Notes under the pieces: model-generated
Told to the model about the DNA's origin: nothing
Seen by the model: the letters and a program-made list of their open reading frames with translations, nothing else
The model's database searches: none
Position numbers and translations under genes: made by a program
In this document: positions 5,585-37,792 of the stretch, one piece after another
Layout of the letters: every line of letters starts with the position of its first letter
Numbering within the stretch: the stretch's first letter is position 1
Source of the DNA: Candidatus Brocadia sinica JPN1
Lineage (GTDB): Bacteria > Planctomycetota > Brocadiia > Brocadiales > Brocadiaceae
Assembly (NCBI RefSeq): GCF_000949635.1
Contig: NZ_BAFN01000001.1
Location: 2,717,673-2,781,672, forward strand
Reading direction: 5' to 3'
DNA: 64,000 bases

Positions 5585-5920
5585 ATGCCAATAGAAGATG
5601 TTTCCAAAACCTCTTTACACCAAGGAGTTGCTAATATAAACCGTATTGAGATAAATCGGCCACATGCAAAGGTAGAAAAGGACGAACGCTCTGCTAAAGT
5701 GAAATTTGATTCAGTGGATATCTCCAAAGAAGCAAGGAACCTTGAGAAGACGATTGCGAGTCTCAAGGCCAGTGTGAGTGAAATGCATGATGTAAGGGCA
5801 GCAAAGATGAAGGAAGTTAAAATAAAATTAGAAAATGGTTTCTATGACCAGCCAGAGGTGATCGAACAGGTAGCGAAGAAGGTTGCAGATGTTTTTAGTG
5901 TTAAAAAGCAAGAGGCATGA
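5585..5920 (+). CDS. flgM: Anti-sigma-28 factor FlgM
   Basis: 111 residues. The C-terminal half carries the FlgM pattern: VDISKEAR (about 38-45), then VRAAKMKEVKIKLENGFYD (about 69-87) and an EVIEQVAKKVADVF helix. FlgM binds FliA until the hook-basal body is finished and is then exported through the flagellar channel. The start is ATG 5585, with the purine-rich GGGAGATT seven to eight bases upstream. A strong sigma-28 promoter lies about 130 bases upstream, fitting autoregulation. The next ORF follows after only 3 bases. Identity rests on the conserved C-terminal motif; the N-terminus is divergent, as is normal for the family. Confidence 0.85.
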   Translation: MPIEDVSKTSLHQGVANINRIEINRPHAKVEKDERSAKVKFDSVDISKEARNLEKTIASLKASVSEMHDVRAAKMKEVKIKLENGFYDQPEVIEQVAKKVADVFSVKKQEA

Positions 5921-7602: not shown

Positions 7603-9000
7603 ATGTCATCGAAGGCAATAATTCTTATTGTGGACGATGAGGAAACGATTCGGTTTTCAATGAAAGAGTTTTTGGAGGGGCAAGGATATGAGGTTGTTGT
7701 CGCCGAAACGTGTGTGCAGGCATTAGAGAAGATAAATGAGTTTCTGCCTGACCTGGTGCTGTTGGATTTGAGGTTGCCCAACATGGATGGAATAGAACTC
7801 CTTGAAAAGGTAAAAACGAAAGATCCTAATGCCTTGATCATTGTTATGACGGGGTATGGAAGTGTTGACTCAGCAGTCGAGGCAATGAAGATAGGGGCTT
7901 ATGATTATTTGGAAAAGCCTTTCAAAACAGAACACTTAAAAGTGGTTATCGAAAAGGCCTTGGGTACCCAGGCATTGAGGAGGGAAGTGTTAGAATTACG
8001 GGCACAGCAGTGGACTTTTGCTGATGAGCCTGGTGGTGTGATAATCGGGAATAGTCAGCAAATGAAAGAGGTGTATAGCCTTATTAAACAGGTGTCAAAG
8101 AGTCCATCAACAACGGTACTAATACAGGGAGAAAGTGGTACAGGGAAGGAACTTGTTGCTCGGGCTATTCATCATTTAAGCTCGCGGAAGAATGGTCGTT
8201 TTGTAGATATTAATTGCGCTGCTTTGACAGAGAGTCTGCTTGAAGCAGAATTATTTGGATATGAAAAGGGCTCCTTTACAGGTGCTACTACGACTGGCAA
8301 GCCGGGCTTGTTTGAAGTTGCTGATAAAGGAACTATTTTTTTGGATGAAATAGGCGAGATGGGTATTGCCTTACAAGCGAAACTTCTGAGAATCCTGCAA
8401 GAGAGACAATTTAAGAGAGTTGGTGGGATTAACGATATCAAAATTGATGTCAGGGTAATTGCGTCAACCAACCGGAATTTGGAAGAGGAGGTGGAATCGG
8501 GTAATTTTAGAAAAGACCTTTATTATAGGTTGAAGGTGTTGCCGATCTATGTTCCTCCATTAAGTGAGAGGAAGGATGATATCATGCTTTTAGTGAAACA
8601 TTTTGTGCATAAATATAATAACGAATTTAACAAAAATGTTCATCACATACCTCCAGAAACAGAAAGATTGCTTTTGGAATACCAGTGGCCCGGAAATATT
8701 CGCGAGTTAAAAAATGTAATTGAGCGAGCTGTCTTGATTTCGAGCAATGGTACATTGCAACCTGAATTAGGTGTTACCGTCGATTCAAGAAGAAATACAA
8801 TTGATAATAATGACATGCATGGGAGTGGAGAAAGCGATAAGGAACTAAATGCTCGTTCGTTGGCAAATATTGAAAGGCAACATATCCAGAGGGTTCTCAA
8901 TGAGACTTCCTGGCGGAGAACCGAGGCGGCCAAGATATTAGGTATCAACAGGACTACTTTATACAATAAAATAAAAGAATATGGCCTTAGTCCGTCATAA
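7603..9000 (+). CDS. Sigma-54-dependent response regulator (NtrC/FlrC type)
   Basis: 465 residues with the complete NtrC architecture. The receiver domain (1-120) has acidic DDE and acceptor Asp55 in LLDLRLP. The AAA+ domain has Walker A GESGTGKE (176-183), sigma-54 contact loop GSFTGA (223-228) and Walker B FLDEIG (246-251). A C-terminal Fis-type helix-turn-helix covers about 425-460 (RTEAAKILGINRTTLYNKI). The intact loop means it should open sigma-54 promoters when phosphorylated. The ATG follows an eight-G run (7592-7599) that acts as a very strong ribosome site. Its position before the flagellar cluster suggests control of flagellar classes, and TGGCAY-N5-TTGCY sites occur at several places in the window. 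Cognate kinase not certain. Confidence 0.9.
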   Translation: MSSKAIILIVDDEETIRFSMKEFLEGQGYEVVVAETCVQALEKINEFLPDLVLLDLRLPNMDGIELLEKVKTKDPNALIIVMTGYGSVDSAVEAMKIGAYDYLEKPFKTEHLKVVIEKALGTQALRREVLELRAQQWTFADEPGGVIIGNSQQMKEVYSLIKQVSKSPSTTVLIQGESGTGKELVARAIHHLSSRKNGRFVDINCAALTESLLEAELFGYEKGSFTGATTTGKPGLFEVADKGTIFLDEIGEMGIALQAKLLRILQERQFKRVGGINDIKIDVRVIASTNRNLEEEVESGNFRKDLYYRLKVLPIYVPPLSERKDDIMLLVKHFVHKYNNEFNKNVHHIPPETERLLLEYQWPGNIRELKNVIERAVLISSNGTLQPELGVTVDSRRNTIDNNDMHGSGESDKELNARSLANIERQHIQRVLNETSWRRTEAAKILGINRTTLYNKIKEYGLSPS

Positions 9001-9098: not shown

Positions 9099-10625
9099 AT
9101 GAAAAAAAAGATTTTGTTGGTAGATGACGAAGAAACGCTACGATGGGCTCTCCAGGAAGCACTGATGGAAGAAGGCTATAATGTAGATAATACCAGTGAC
9201 GGTGTCAAAGCGCTGGAATTTATCAGGAAAGCTAATTATGATTTAGTGATCAGCGATTTGAGAATGCCTGCTATGGGTGGGTTACAATTAATTTCCGAGA
9301 TAAAAAAGATACGTCCGGATGTTAAATCTATTATTATCACGGCATATGGCTCAATAGAAACAGTAATCGAAGCCATGCACATCGGTGTGTCAGATTTTCT
9401 GACAAAACCGTTTAAAATTGAGCATATTAAAAGTGTCATTCATAGGGTTTTGTACGATTCTTCAATTTCAAAAAATAATGCTGGAGATGGCAGGGGTAGC
9501 GGAGGATTGAAAATTAAATACAACAATCCATGCAGACAACCACGCACCTGTTTCCTTGCAAAGGATACGGCAGGAAATGCAAATCATATACTGTATGATT
9601 TTCTTGAATTAGGGAAATTAAATGTGCTTCTGTTTGGAAGTGTCTCATATGAGGTAAATACAAATAATTTTGATGTTATGATGAAAACAATCTTCCGTAA
9701 TGTGATAAAAAAGGATAAATCTCCTGCTTCTTTACTAAAGGAGATTAATTTGTATCTTTGTAAGAATATTTTACAGCGGTTTCCTGTGGCATTATTTTGC
9801 GCCTTTTTGGATATACAAAGGCAAATTCTTTCCTATGCAACGTATGGGGAAGAGCTAACAGGTATTCTATGTCTGCCCACAAAAGAAGTAAAGATGTTAG
9901 GATCAGCCCCTTTTTCTTTAAATTTGTTTCCGGGAATGATGATTGTGGAAAGTTCTGTACCTTTCGTATCTGGTAGCAAATTAATTTTGATATGCAGTGG
10001 ACCGTTGTCGAATGGTCTGAGAAATGAAATAATCGCTCTCGATAGGCTCAGGGACGTGATATTCGATGCGAGTACGGCCGGGTGTGAAGATATGGCAAAA
10101 GATATTAAACTTCAGATCAGAGAACTCGATAAGCAAGTTGCCGAAGAAAAAGGCATCGCTGTGATGGTTTCGAGCCTTGAGTGTAAGGCAGACACCGCTT
10201 GGGAAGAGGTGATATCCCTTCCAATACCTATTCATAATTATGGAAAAATGATAGAACATTTTGATAGAAAATTATCGTCGATTGTGGAGGATAATTTTAA
10301 GAGATATCAAATTGTCGCATCCATTAATGAGGCTGTTTTAAACGTGGCGTCTTTTGCATATAAAACGGATGAGGTGGGGGAGGTTTTGTTGAAATTTTCG
10401 AAATTAGGGGATGAAGTTATTATAGAGATTTGTGATCAGGGTTGTGGATTTGATATACAGAACTATAGAGAACCGGATGTAACAGTATACAAAGAGTTAA
10501 CAAAGAAGAGTGGGAGAGGGATATTTCTTATGAAGAATTTAATGGATAGAATGATGATACAATCCTCTAAAGAAATGGGGACCGCTGTTCATATGGCAAA
10601 GCGAGTAACCTGCAATGAAAATTGA
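9099..10625 (+). CDS. Response regulator with degenerate SpoIIE/PP2C-like domain and RsbW-like ATPase domain
   Basis: 508 residues. The receiver (1-120) has acceptor Asp53 in ISDLRMP. The middle region (about 145-345) follows the SpoIIE/RsbU fold pattern (YDFLELG, SPASLLKEIN, ALFCAFLDIQ, SYATYGEE). The metal-binding aspartates expected in GGD, GDVSGHG and YTDG are replaced by GNA (159-161), GSVSYEV (180-186) and CSGPL (299-303), so phosphatase activity is unlikely. A C-terminal HATPase of the anti-sigma kinase type follows (about 385-505: NEAVLN N-box, CDQGCGFD, GRGIFLM). Its stop overlaps the start of the STAS gene by 11 bases, so the two form a partner-switch pair. Target unknown; flagellar or sigma control is inferred from position. 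Confidence 0.75.
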   Translation: MKKKILLVDDEETLRWALQEALMEEGYNVDNTSDGVKALEFIRKANYDLVISDLRMPAMGGLQLISEIKKIRPDVKSIIITAYGSIETVIEAMHIGVSDFLTKPFKIEHIKSVIHRVLYDSSISKNNAGDGRGSGGLKIKYNNPCRQPRTCFLAKDTAGNANHILYDFLELGKLNVLLFGSVSYEVNTNNFDVMMKTIFRNVIKKDKSPASLLKEINLYLCKNILQRFPVALFCAFLDIQRQILSYATYGEELTGILCLPTKEVKMLGSAPFSLNLFPGMMIVESSVPFVSGSKLILICSGPLSNGLRNEIIALDRLRDVIFDASTAGCEDMAKDIKLQIRELDKQVAEEKGIAVMVSSLECKADTAWEEVISLPIPIHNYGKMIEHFDRKLSSIVEDNFKRYQIVASINEAVLNVASFAYKTDEVGEVLLKFSKLGDEVIIEICDQGCGFDIQNYREPDVTVYKELTKKSGRGIFLMKNLMDRMMIQSSKEMGTAVHMAKRVTCNEN

Positions 10626-11001
10626 GAGACAAGAAAAAGAGAAAGCTACAATATTGGTACCAGCAGGGGATTTAGTTTATGAGGGGATAGATGAACTTGA
10701 AACTCTTTTTAAGGAATTGAGTGATGATGCCCGTTATGTTATACTTGATCTCGAGAATACAAGATATCTATCGGCAAGGGCACTGGGTATAATGGCGTTT
10801 TATGTAAAACTTTTCGGGGATAAACAAAGAGGTTTGAAATTGGTCCATGTGAGTGAACACATAAAAAACTTATTTGATGTTACTGGCATACTGAAAATTA
10901 TTGAGATATTTGAGAGTGAAGATGCGGCTTTTGTGAGTATCGGATCACAAGTTGGAAAACTAGAGAAAATGTTTTTATGGTCGAATGATTGTTTTAGTTA
11001 A
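10615..11001 (+). CDS. STAS-domain anti-sigma-factor antagonist-like protein
   Basis: 128 residues, SpoIIAA/RsbV-like: a beta strand ILVPAGDL, DLENTRYLSARALG around the regulatory loop, and the typical end HIKNLFDVTGILKIIEIF. In classical antagonists the loop reads D-S-S-G-L with the first serine phosphorylated by the ATPase partner. Here it reads S53-A54-R55-A56-L57, so the phosphoacceptor position is alanine. It overlaps the upstream receiver-ATPase gene by 11 bases, so translational coupling is likely. Loss of both the phosphosite and the phosphatase metal ligands in its partner suggests a switch run by binding rather than by a phosphorylation cycle. That is inference; neighbouring Ser53 might substitute. 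Confidence 0.8.
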   Translation: MKIERQEKEKATILVPAGDLVYEGIDELETLFKELSDDARYVILDLENTRYLSARALGIMAFYVKLFGDKQRGLKLVHVSEHIKNLFDVTGILKIIEIFESEDAAFVSIGSQVGKLEKMFLWSNDCFS

Positions 11002-11036
11002 AGATTTTGACTGGCACTGATAAGATAGGTACAAAT

Positions 11037-11366
11037 ATGTCCGATTTGATTCAACAGGATGAACCTCAGTCCAGAGCGGAAATTGGTGAGCAGACTCCGG
11101 CAGTATTGAACGAGATTAGTACGAAATCGGAAGGAAAGAAATTCTCCATGCCGAGGGTAGATATTACTCGAATAATTTTATTGTTTCGGCAATATGGAAT
11201 TTCAATATCTGTGAACCTGGCAATCTTGGGGGCGATTTGCTTTTTATTCTTACTCCAGAGGGATTGGATTGAAGGGGGGAATAAAGATATTGGGCGCATT
11301 GTGGAAGAAAAGGTGATGGAGACCATCAAAAAAAAACCTCTCTCCAGGGAAAGGAAAAAACAATGA
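11037..11366 (+). CDS. Single-pass membrane-anchor protein, probably the N-terminal half of a split TPR protein
   Basis: 109 residues from ATG 11037. A hydrophilic N-terminus (about 1-55) is followed by one transmembrane helix (SVNLAILGAICFLFLL, about 60-80), then a charged stretch to the stop at 11366. No known domain. The next frame continues open straight through the stop: removing one A from the A6 run at 11355-11360 joins this protein to the TPR protein at 11395-11898. The result would be an inner-membrane-anchored TPR protein of about 285 residues. A separate ATG (11363) overlaps the stop as ATGA but reads only 14 codons. Whether the break is an assembly error, decay or slippage is unresolved. 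Confidence 0.55.
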   Translation: MSDLIQQDEPQSRAEIGEQTPAVLNEISTKSEGKKFSMPRVDITRIILLFRQYGISISVNLAILGAICFLFLLQRDWIEGGNKDIGRIVEEKVMETIKKKPLSRERKKQ

Positions 11367-11394
11367 AGATTCATTTTCAAATCAAAAAAAAGAA

Positions 11395-11898
11395 GTGGAA
11401 TCATTGAATTTAAAGGGCATGTCAGGTGCAGTTGATAACTCGAAATATGTAATCGAGGCCAATAGATTGTACGAACAGGGAAATTATGAAAGCGCTGCGG
11501 CTTTTTATGAAAAAGGTTTGGATAAATCAATACCCTTTGTAAACGAAGATTTTGTGATGTATCGTTTAGGGGATTGCTATTTATTGTCTGAAAGATATGA
11601 GGAGGCATTAAAGGTGTTTCAGACATTAAACAGTGACTACATTAATAGTTCGTATCAGTTTAAAAGCCGGTTAAAAACAGGAGAATGTTATGCCGCATTG
11701 GGAGAATATAAAAAGGCGCGGAAAACACTCTATTCGATTGTAGCACAAGAGGGGAAATGTTGTTCCGATGACGACAAACTAACAGTTGTGGACTCTTATT
11801 ATAAAATTGCAGAGTATTATATGCAAGAAGCCGAACGACTTCGTAAAGTAGCTGCTGGAGGACCTGGTTACTCGGACCGGCCGCTGGCCCTGAAATAA
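11395..11898 (+). CDS. TPR-repeat protein, probably the C-terminal half of the preceding ORF
   Basis: 167 residues from a GTG at 11395. No ribosome site is obvious and the frame is open further upstream, which argues against an independent start. Contains TPR-type helices: EANRLYEQGNYESAAAFYEK, YRLGDCYLLSERYEEALKVF and TGECYAALGEYKKARKTL. It lacks a signal peptide of its own. In frame with it, codons from 11356 read through the A6 run and would follow the transmembrane anchor encoded just upstream. TPR domains mediate protein contacts, and several similar TPR proteins sit in this block. No partner can be named. Confidence 0.6.
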   Translation: MESLNLKGMSGAVDNSKYVIEANRLYEQGNYESAAAFYEKGLDKSIPFVNEDFVMYRLGDCYLLSERYEEALKVFQTLNSDYINSSYQFKSRLKTGECYAALGEYKKARKTLYSIVAQEGKCCSDDDKLTVVDSYYKIAEYYMQEAERLRKVAAGGPGYSDRPLALK

Positions 11899-13823: not shown

Positions 13824-14285
13824 TAAAAGTAAAATTGCATTAGATTCCCGTTTTAGTTTAGAATTATTTGAAATTCCCTGCAATAAAGCATAGAGAAAGA
13901 AACTATTTAAAATAGTACACACCTTCGAAAAAACATATCCCATACGACTAATTTTGTTTTCTGTTCTTGTATTCATTTTCAACTGATATGTCAAGAGATG
14001 TCGATATTTTATCGTTTAAGTGTACGCTGATTAACTATGAAACTAATAATACGAGATAATAAGCAATAATCTTCTTTTTCAAAACAATTCAATATCGCTT
14101 GTGCTTAATCTGTTTTTTTTATATAAGTTAAGATTTTTTCAATCCTTTCTACTAATCATTTATATCTAAATATCTAGATATTTTTTGTGACTTTCCTAGT
14201 CGTGGCACAACGCTTGCTCTTATTCCTATTGACGATGATGTAGTATTTTGAAACTAACAATTTGGGCAATAATCAGGGTGATTTT
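13824..14285. other. AT-rich intergenic region with sigma-54 site
   Basis: 462 bases without a supported gene. A minus-strand ORF at 13788-13994 has no ribosome site and was not accepted. The clear content is a consensus sigma-54 promoter at 14203-14218. The upstream 350 bases are extremely AT-rich, suitable for activator or IHF-type binding, but no specific repeat was identified. Confidence 0.5.
14203..14218 (+). promoter_or_regulatory. Consensus sigma-54 promoter
   Basis: TGGCAC-N5-TTGCT, a full match to the sigma-54 core. Predicted transcription start near 14229, about 57 bases before the ATG at 14286. It would drive the split TPR gene, the sensor kinase and probably the NtrC-type regulator. 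Confidence 0.85.
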
Positions 14286-15255: not shown

Positions 15256-16578
15256 ATGATGGAAAATGCATCTATAAAAGAATTCACAAAAAATCGGGAT
15301 ACCGAGCTTGTTGCTGCCTTTCATCTGTTTAATCAGTATACCCAGCGTCTTGAGGAAGCTTACAATCAGCTCCAAAGTAGGGTTAAAGAGATTGACAGAG
15401 AAATGGCACATACGAATAGATGTTTGAAGGACAAGGTGCAGGAGTTAGATAGTCTTACTAAGTATTTAAACAGCCTTTTAAGCAGCATTCACAGCGGTGT
15501 CATTGCGGTGAATTTAAAAGGTGAAGTGTCTACTTTGAATACGGCAGCAGAAAAAATATTAAACTTAAAGGTATCGGAAGCGATAGGAAAAAGAGTTGAG
15601 TTCATTTTCAAGAATAGTGATGGTAGTATACCGTTACTGCTATTAGCGCTTGAAAGAGGGAGGAATTGTATAGACGTAGAACGGAAGATAGAAACAAATC
15701 ACGGGATGTTGAAGTGGATTGAAAGCAGTGTGTCCCTGATTAGGGATGCAAATGAAAATACGATAGGTGCAGTCGAGGTATTTAGGGATTTGTCAGAAAT
15801 CAGGGAACTGGAGACGCGCCTGAGAAATGCAGATAAATTGGCCGCTGTTGGCGCTATGGCTGCATGTATTGCTCATGAAATTCGTAACCCTCTGAACGGA
15901 ATAGAGGGGTTCTCCGCTTTGCTTGCAAGAGACTTCGAGGATTCAGATCCAAGAAAGAAGCTGGTAAAAAATATCATACAGGGTACAAAGAATTTAAATA
16001 AGTCGGTGACTGATCTGCTGATATTTGCCCGTCCACTCAGACTGAAATTAAGGAACAATAGTATTTCTGAGATATTGAATAAGACACTTTTCTTTGTGAC
16101 AGAGGATATGAAACAAAAGGGCATTACGAACATTCTCATTCGGAAAGAATATAATTTTGACACAGACTGCTTGCGATGTGATCCCGAGAAATTGCACCAG
16201 GCTTTTTTAAATCTCTGCTTTAATGCGATCCAGTCCATGGTGCGCGGGGGTTGTTTAACGATATTTACACGCCTGGCAGAGGATGATGCACAGGGGAGTA
16301 TCCAGGTAGGGATAAGGGATACAGGGGCTGGCATTGAGAAAGAAGTTGTTCATAAAATCTTTGACCCGTTTTTTACGACAAAACAAGAAGGGACTGGTTT
16401 AGGATTGGCGATCGTGAGCAGGATTATTGAGGCGCATAACGGCAAGATTTATGTTGAGAGCGTGGAGGGCAAAGGGACAACTTTTTATATTAACTTGCCA
16501 AGGAATGGTAATTTCAATACAGATATTTTCAATGATGCGAATCTGAAAAACGAAGCTTTGGTGCCGCAGCTTGTATAA
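15256..16578 (+). CDS. NtrB/FlrB-type sensor histidine kinase
   Basis: 440 residues, soluble. A coiled-coil N-terminus (about 20-70) leads into a PAS domain (about 70-185: LNSLLSSIHSGVIAVN, LSEIRELETRLRNADK), then HisKA with AHEIRNPLNG (His207) and HATPase (CFNAIQSM, DTGAGIE, GTGLGLAI). Such soluble PAS kinases (FlrB, FleS, FlgS, NtrB) phosphorylate a partner sigma-54 activator. The NtrC-type gene immediately downstream is the obvious partner. In flagellar systems the kinase senses assembly of the export gate and MS ring. Position before flgBC-fliE and downstream of a sigma-54 promoter fits that role. Confidence 0.9.
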   Translation: MMENASIKEFTKNRDTELVAAFHLFNQYTQRLEEAYNQLQSRVKEIDREMAHTNRCLKDKVQELDSLTKYLNSLLSSIHSGVIAVNLKGEVSTLNTAAEKILNLKVSEAIGKRVEFIFKNSDGSIPLLLLALERGRNCIDVERKIETNHGMLKWIESSVSLIRDANENTIGAVEVFRDLSEIRELETRLRNADKLAAVGAMAACIAHEIRNPLNGIEGFSALLARDFEDSDPRKKLVKNIIQGTKNLNKSVTDLLIFARPLRLKLRNNSISEILNKTLFFVTEDMKQKGITNILIRKEYNFDTDCLRCDPEKLHQAFLNLCFNAIQSMVRGGCLTIFTRLAEDDAQGSIQVGIRDTGAGIEKEVVHKIFDPFFTTKQEGTGLGLAIVSRIIEAHNGKIYVESVEGKGTTFYINLPRNGNFNTDIFNDANLKNEALVPQLV

Positions 16579-35478: not shown

Positions 35479-36243
35479 ATGAGCGCGATAAATAAGAATC
35501 GGACGAGTTATGCAGGTGAAAATATGGCGAAGCGTGATAAATTAATTACTGACAACCTCTCCCTGGTTAAGTATGTAGTGGGCAAAATTATGGTGTATCT
35601 TCCTTCATTTGTGGACAAGGAGGACCTCGTAGAATATGGCATCCTCGGATTGATAGAGGCGGCGGAAAAATACGATTCTAAAAGTAATGCAAAGTTTGGC
35701 ACATATGCCCTTTCTCGCATTCGTGGTGCAATTTTGGATCACTTGAGATCTCAGGATTGGTTACCACGTTCCATGCGCGATAAGGCAACATTGGTAAGAG
35801 ATGTGTACATGTCGTTGGAACAGAAACTAAACAGACCGCCGCGTTCGGAAGAGATTGCATCAGTACTGAAAATGAAACCGGCAGAGTGGGATAAATTATT
35901 AACGGATATCAGTTTGGGTACGTTCCTTTCGCTGGAAGAATTTTATCAAAAATCAGAAAATGCTGCGGAGGGGAATAGACGTCAGGAAATCAGCGACCCT
36001 AAACTCCATGACCCGTTAGGCGATTTAGAGACAAAGGAAGAAAGAGCCTTGCTAGCAAAAGCCATTTCTGAGCTACCCAAAAAAGAAAGATTGGTGATTA
36101 CTTTATATTATTACGAGGATCTCATGTTGAGGGAAATAAGCGAATTAATGGGCATCTCAGAATCGAGGATATCTCAGCTTCATCATCGCGCCTTATTCTT
36201 GCTTCGAGCCAAAATGAGCAAGATTACACTGAATGCGTGTTAA
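35479..36243 (+). CDS. fliA: Flagellar sigma factor FliA (sigma-28)
   Basis: 254 residues. Region 2 shows NLSLVKYVVGKI, EDLVEYGILGLIEAAEKYDS and FGTYALSRIRGAILDHLRSQ. Region 3 has RSMRDKATLVRDV. Region 4 has LPKKERLVITLYYYEDLMLR and the recognition helix MGISESRISQLHHRA. The WhiG/FliA subfamily is clear. It would read the TAAA-N15-GCCGATAT promoter of flgM found in this window. An internal ATG (35524, MAKRDKL) is an alternative start, but AAAGGAAAAAAG precedes ATG 35479. Confidence 0.95.
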   Translation: MSAINKNRTSYAGENMAKRDKLITDNLSLVKYVVGKIMVYLPSFVDKEDLVEYGILGLIEAAEKYDSKSNAKFGTYALSRIRGAILDHLRSQDWLPRSMRDKATLVRDVYMSLEQKLNRPPRSEEIASVLKMKPAEWDKLLTDISLGTFLSLEEFYQKSENAAEGNRRQEISDPKLHDPLGDLETKEERALLAKAISELPKKERLVITLYYYEDLMLREISELMGISESRISQLHHRALFLLRAKMSKITLNAC

Positions 36244-37475: not shown

Positions 37476-37792
37476 TGATACCTCCTGGTTCCTTTTTTAG
37501 GCCTTTTACCGTGAATGGTAAAACTTCTTCAAGGGTGAATGCTGCTAAAAACGTGGTATATTTTTTCTCCAGGTATCGGAAAAATTTACATACCTTATGA
37601 TGGTTGTTTAATAATGTAACCTTTCACCATACCTTCATATGTAATTTTATATAATTATAACTTCCTATTACATAAATAGTTAACGTTGGATTTGTCTGGC
37701 AATTGTTTTTAAAATTGTTTGGCACATACATTGCTTGAGCTAAGTATCAGAAACTAAATAATTAATTTAGGTATCATTATGAGGATGGCAAT
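37320..37792. other. Intergenic region upstream of the GAF-HD-GYP gene
   Basis: 473 bases without a plus-strand gene. It holds the minus-strand small ORF above, a short hairpin (TTTTACC-GTGAAT-GGTAAAA at 37504-37523), a motif near 37572 similar to one near 28285, and a consensus sigma-54 promoter at 37720-37735. Confidence 0.5.
37720..37735 (+). promoter_or_regulatory. Consensus sigma-54 promoter before GAF-HD-GYP and fliC
   Basis: TGGCAC-N5-TTGCT, exact consensus and spacing. Predicted start near 37746, 47 bases before ATG 37793. No sigma-28 site was found immediately before flagellin, so this may also supply the flagellin message. Confidence 0.85.

Follow-up and report, generated by a model that had tools for sequence, protein, structure and literature searches.

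A two-gene switch of flagellar-gene-bearing anammox bacteria probably operates through protein binding alone, since its phosphatase metal site is incomplete and its phosphoacceptor absent in every relative examined; the binding mechanism is one that we infer. The genes lie in a 64,000-nucleotide stretch of DNA (hereafter the window) from the 4.08 Mb genome of the anammox planctomycete Candidatus Brocadia sinica, and encode a response regulator (RR) and a small STAS protein. The pair most resembles HsbR/HsbA of Pseudomonas aeruginosa, and we regard it as a variant of that kind and not as a new category. That the anammox flagellar cluster has here a partner-switch module of the HsbR/HsbA type which has given up serine phosphorylation is, in our judgement, about as likely as not. 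The features of the pair are as follows.

9099–10625, + strand: RR gene, 508 aa, with receiver, pseudo-PP2C and RsbW-type HATPase (open reading frame, Pfam)
9111–9440, + strand: RR receiver domain, aa 5–114 (Pfam Response_reg)
9540–10178, + strand: RR degenerate PP2C/SpoIIE domain, aa 148–360, with metal positions I164, S181, S300 and G352 (Pfam, fold, alignment)
9639–9641, + strand: codon of RR S181, the SpoIIE D628 position (alignment; ligand from PMC8080068)
10302–10601, + strand: RR HATPase_c_2 domain, aa 402–501 (Pfam; matches SpoIIAB/RsbW)
10615–11001, + strand: STAS protein, 128 aa, overlapping the RR gene by 11 nt (open reading frame, Pfam STAS)
10774–10776, + strand: Ala54 codon GCA, the phosphoacceptor position (profile alignment, orthologs)
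10939–10983, + strand: conserved C-terminal tail of the STAS protein, aa ~109–123, GxQVGKLEKxxLW (ortholog alignment)

Both reading frames described in an earlier note on this DNA were recovered, at 9099–10625 and 10615–11001. Pfam assigns Response_reg (5–114), SpoIIE (193–344, 37.7 bits) and HATPase_c_2 (402–501) to the RR and STAS (42 bits) to the second frame, and the order receiver, PP2C and HATPase within a single chain is that of HsbR/CrsR-type regulators. The phosphatase metal-ligand aspartates of such regulators are missing. When the RR was aligned to canonical SpoIIE-type PP2Cs from related genomes that have kept their motifs, none of the four metal positions held an aspartate: I164 occupies the GGD position, S181 that of GDVSGxG (SpoIIE D628), S300 that of TDG (D746) and G352 that of DD(I/M)T (D795), D628, D746 and D795 being metal ligands of SpoIIE (PMC8080068). 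The RR thus carries none of these RsbU/SpoIIE motifs. The earlier claim that all expected metal aspartates had been lost is exact for the window protein but only partly true of its relatives, as aspartate is found at position 300 in two and at position 352 in six of the 16 full-length Brocadiaceae RR proteins. At positions 164 and 181 none of the 16 has an aspartate (position 181 is S in 13/16 and I, G or C in the other three), and the first two metal aspartates are also absent from the distant homolog L082 and from three proteins of a sister family, in which D(D/E)ET is still present at the last PP2C motif. A complete metal site was found in 0/16 full-length family proteins, 0/1 distant homolog and 0/3 sister-family positional orthologs, and so no homolog with intact catalytic residues came to light. 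Judging from the alignment, the central metal ligand appears to have gone early and the other ligands to have eroded afterwards. The orthologs rule out that the loss is confined to a single genome or results from misassembly. One family genome (G027; L107, 29–1833) carries a canonical phosphatase-kinase-STAS trio alongside the degenerate pair (motifs GGDFYDF, GDVSGKG, YTDGVTE and YISSAGL), and this served as an internal control.

The second protein has the STAS fold (SpoIIAA 1thn_B, Z 17.8, 111 aligned, rmsd 1.8) and lacks the phosphoacceptor Ser/Thr of HsbA, SpoIIAA and RsbV antagonists. Profile alignment to SpoIIAA and RsbV places YLSARALG under FMDSSGLG, so that Ala54 corresponds to SpoIIAA Ser58, as the earlier note had proposed, and Ser53 to Asp57, the first Ser of the background motif 'YISSAGL' and one residue before the acceptor. 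Ser53 as the phosphosite is ruled out by this alignment and by the background motif, although a shifted acceptor is conceivable biochemically. Alanine occupies the acceptor position in 15/15 family STAS proteins and in L082, and is constant over two codons (GCA in 11, GCT in four); Ser53 and Ala54 are both invariant where most adjoining positions vary. The norm was set by 38 STAS domains from the phylum's best-scoring loci and five loci from the order (Ser 37/38, Gly 1/38, Ala 0/38), a sample that favours canonical STAS domains and from which uniqueness of the alanine does not follow. The top-scoring PDB chain, 1TID, also has Ala at the acceptor position in the printed alignment (FMDASGLG). 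Beyond the STAS fold, the tail GPQVGKLEKxLLW, which also occurs in L082, is predicted with low confidence and is a candidate docking motif. In the metagenome-assembled genome G009 (L064, 10107–10340; same gene in L006) the STAS frame ends after 77 aa, with more stops in the matched stretch (one TGA, two TAA).

The pair is embedded in a flagellar neighbourhood, in which four further genes are of interest.

5585–5920, + strand: FlgM-like anti-sigma-28 factor, same cluster (Pfam 27.3 bits, cut-off 25; below the NCBIfam cut-off)
7603–9000, + strand: NtrC-type sigma-54 activator directly upstream of the RR (Pfam, NCBIfam, synteny)
15256–16578, + strand: histidine kinase, same cluster, candidate input (conserved position; kinase motifs in the translation)
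35479–36243, + strand: FliA sigma-28 factor, likely end point (NCBIfam)

The histidine kinase, a further NtrC and flgB/flgC follow downstream of the pair, as does a flagellar cluster including FliG and FliA, and the conserved order reads FlgM, TolB/TPR, NtrC, RR, STAS, TM, TPR, HK, NtrC, FlgB. In the six family genomes whose wider surroundings were compared, NtrC-RR-STAS-TM-N0/TPR is kept in all six, as it is in L082, and FlgM and TolB/TPR lie upstream in four; neither matched in the stretch read at L062 (Kuenenia genus) or L065. Homologs ~47–81% identical to the window proteins comprise 16 RR and 15 STAS proteins, plus the distant L082. Across 33 genomes of the family the RR is present in 17/20 with FliG versus 0/13 without it (Fisher p ~1e-6, ignoring relatedness), a tie that is partly trivial because the genomes share ancestry and the pair is itself part of the flagellar cluster. 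One FliG-positive genome without the RR (G031) has its STAS gene at a contig end, and a single-contig family genome (G022) has FliG without the RR/STAS pair. A search of 392 genomes of the phylum with a PP2C-ATPase profile gave strong PP2C-part matches only from the order of the window genome, and a plasmid search returned receiver or generic SpoIIE matches only.

Gene order, with FlgM, is likewise kept in the sister family (f3), but there the RR lacks an ATPase domain, ending after the pseudophosphatase, and at three loci it is not followed by a STAS gene. The STAS/ATPase pair is therefore not essential to the locus, as flagellar cluster and receiver-pseudophosphatase have both been retained in the sister family in its absence. 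For the same reason the two losses, which the earlier note had called correlated, are not strictly coupled. Between the NtrC and the receiver-pseudophosphatase, the sister family encodes a protein of 164–167 aa (L057 10420–10917, L058 10564–11067, L059 10793–11287) with a HisKA-like H-box, THK(I/V)RNPLAGISA, and no ATPase domain, possibly a phosphotransfer or orphan dimerisation protein. Two window regions that are single frames in relatives are split here, 11007–11898 into 119 + 167 aa (296 aa at L060, 10604–11494) and 14262–15235 into 122 + 202 aa (315 aa at L060, 13925–14872), by frameshift or sequencing error. A sigma-54 promoter scan of the window gave 34 matches against 27.8 expected, which is no enrichment, and none at the RR/STAS pair; exact -24/-12 consensus matches lie at 14203–14218 and 37720–37735, about 45–60 bp upstream of ORF starts.

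Several described systems share parts of this architecture. HsbR/HsbA of P. aeruginosa and CrsR/CrsA of Shewanella combine a receiver-PP2C-ATPase RR with a STAS protein and are linked to FlgM/FliA (PMC6482189), and E. coli RssB is a described receiver-pseudophosphatase; the earlier statement that no described system of this type was known is therefore not supported. However, HsbR is described as having both kinase and phosphatase activity, and Ser56 of HsbA is phosphorylated, whereas the Brocadia pair has neither metal site nor acceptor serine and has FlgM in its own cluster. The SpoIIAA/SpoIIAB/SpoIIE and RsbV/RsbW/RsbU systems of Bacillus have the same three folds and pairing, and provide the nearest solved sequence relatives for the STAS and ATPase parts, but they rely on reversible phosphorylation of Ser58/Ser56, while the Brocadia pair lacks both sites and has its ATPase and pseudophosphatase fused to a receiver. 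The Ala58 form of SpoIIAA has been solved in structure with SpoIIAB. Rv1364c of Mycobacterium tuberculosis, an RsbU-RsbW fusion, also carries a PP2C and an ATPase domain on a single chain (3ke6, matched by Foldseek), but has no flagellar context; it is likened here at the level of fold.

Given the missing catalytic residues, the pair could be read as what is left of a canonical partner switch, in decay and functionless today, and the pseudo-PP2C domain (pPP2C) is indeed less conserved in Brocadiaceae than the receiver and ATPase domains. We find this very improbable. Frames are open in nearly all orthologs, Ala54 is invariant, synteny is conserved, and dN/dS in close pairs (pairwise NG86, without a formal test) is 0–0.13 in the receiver, 0.04–0.26 in the HATPase and 0.17–0.36 even in pPP2C. 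With these values well below 1, the RR is under purifying selection and the pair does not look like decay, and a pseudogene reading is disfavoured. The same conclusion follows from the signature residues, as receiver residues D9, D10, D53, T81 and K103 and the ATPase/kinase signatures E411, N415, DxGxGF, GRG and GT are intact and invariant in all 16 full-length family RRs; the earlier note makes no mention of the ATPase signatures. The ATPase domain, which aligns to SpoIIAB and RsbW, in this way retains the ATP-binding and kinase signature of HsbR/CrsR-type regulators, and the invariance of E411 and N415 is unexpected if phosphoryl transfer had lost importance, which counts against a phosphorylation-free reading. 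The domain could thus be a still-active kinase with another target, be it the invariant Ser53, another STAS residue or another protein. We judge this unlikely: Ser53 falls one residue before the acceptor, and the family searches, within their sensitivity, turned up no further stand-alone STAS, RsbU-like or RsbW-like protein in the genome, leaving no evident alternative substrate or phosphatase for the pair. A second STAS substrate in the genome was rejected, as the only other STAS domain found is fused to an MlaE-like permease; no further HATPase_c_2 protein exceeds the cut-off, and no intact SpoIIE-type PP2C partner for reversal was found, the second PF07228 (SpoIIE) match reading as an ordinary 240-aa PP2C-type phosphatase.

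A different role is suggested by RssB, in which a receiver is joined to a PP2C fold that, in the E. coli protein, has no active-site residues (PMC7226468, PMC12143880), a combination also found in the RR. The receiver and pseudophosphatase could act as an RssB-like adaptor which, once the receiver is phosphorylated, sequesters a sigma factor or FlgM or hands it on, perhaps to a protease, with ATPase and STAS parts as accessories. The RssB proteins of P. aeruginosa and E. coli were the best Foldseek matches of the RR model, with the receiver contributing much of the score, and the sister family keeps only the receiver-pseudophosphatase at the same locus. Against this, conservation in Brocadiaceae is higher in the ATPase and STAS parts than in the PP2C part, and the NCBIfam RssB models match the receiver only (~76 bits against cut-offs of 329 and 700) in a protein that has an HATPase. 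RssB itself lacks an ATPase domain and controls sigma-S proteolysis, and the P. aeruginosa form, which has an RsbV-like RssC, is described as catalytically active. The 508-aa model has a pTM of 0.47 with its ATPase end poorly predicted, and a further structural search with it was filled by receiver domains and silent on the other parts. Overall we consider an adaptor of this kind unlikely but, like the kinase with another target, a serious rival.

The most likely reading remains that of the earlier note, a phosphorylation-independent switch within a flagellar block, which withstood both the search for intact orthologs and the placing of Ser53. The proposal that it is gated by the receiver alone is not supported, as the ATP site is intact and nucleotide state may matter too. 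In its specific form, which we put forward tentatively and at somewhat less than even weight, this would be a naturally evolved switch without serine phosphorylation, in which a STAS protein that is permanently 'unphosphorylated' moves between the FlgM/FliA circuit and the ATPase domain under the sole control of receiver phosphorylation, perhaps with the ATP/ADP state, and the former phosphatase serves as a relay scaffold. The Ala54 protein would be permanently in the 'dephosphorylated' binding state, comparable to HsbA S56A and the Ala58 form of SpoIIAA, and would be held by the ATPase domain of the RR. Phosphorylation of the receiver would be relayed through the non-catalytic PP2C domain, serving as a dimerisation and relay scaffold, an idea taken from a comparison of RsbU and RssB (PMC12143880), and the receiver signal, the nucleotide state of the ATPase or both would alter STAS-ATPase binding. 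The freed STAS protein or ATPase domain may then target FlgM/FliA or else a different sigma factor, candidates suggested by gene position and by HsbA. In P. aeruginosa, FliA is freed when HsbA in its unphosphorylated form binds FlgM, and the S56A form of HsbA gives about 80% more swimming (PMC6482189); by analogy, a STAS protein with a natural Ala54 should behave likewise.

No description of flagellar control in anammox bacteria was found in the literature searched, and the pair offers a first entry into it. The usual account of how partner switches work is a phosphorylation cycle. A conserved lineage that has neither phosphatase site nor acceptor, and whose binding domains are under selection, is a natural test of this architecture minus the cycle. 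The pair also provides a parallel to E. coli RssB, as another receiver-linked PP2C that has lost catalysis and turned binding protein.
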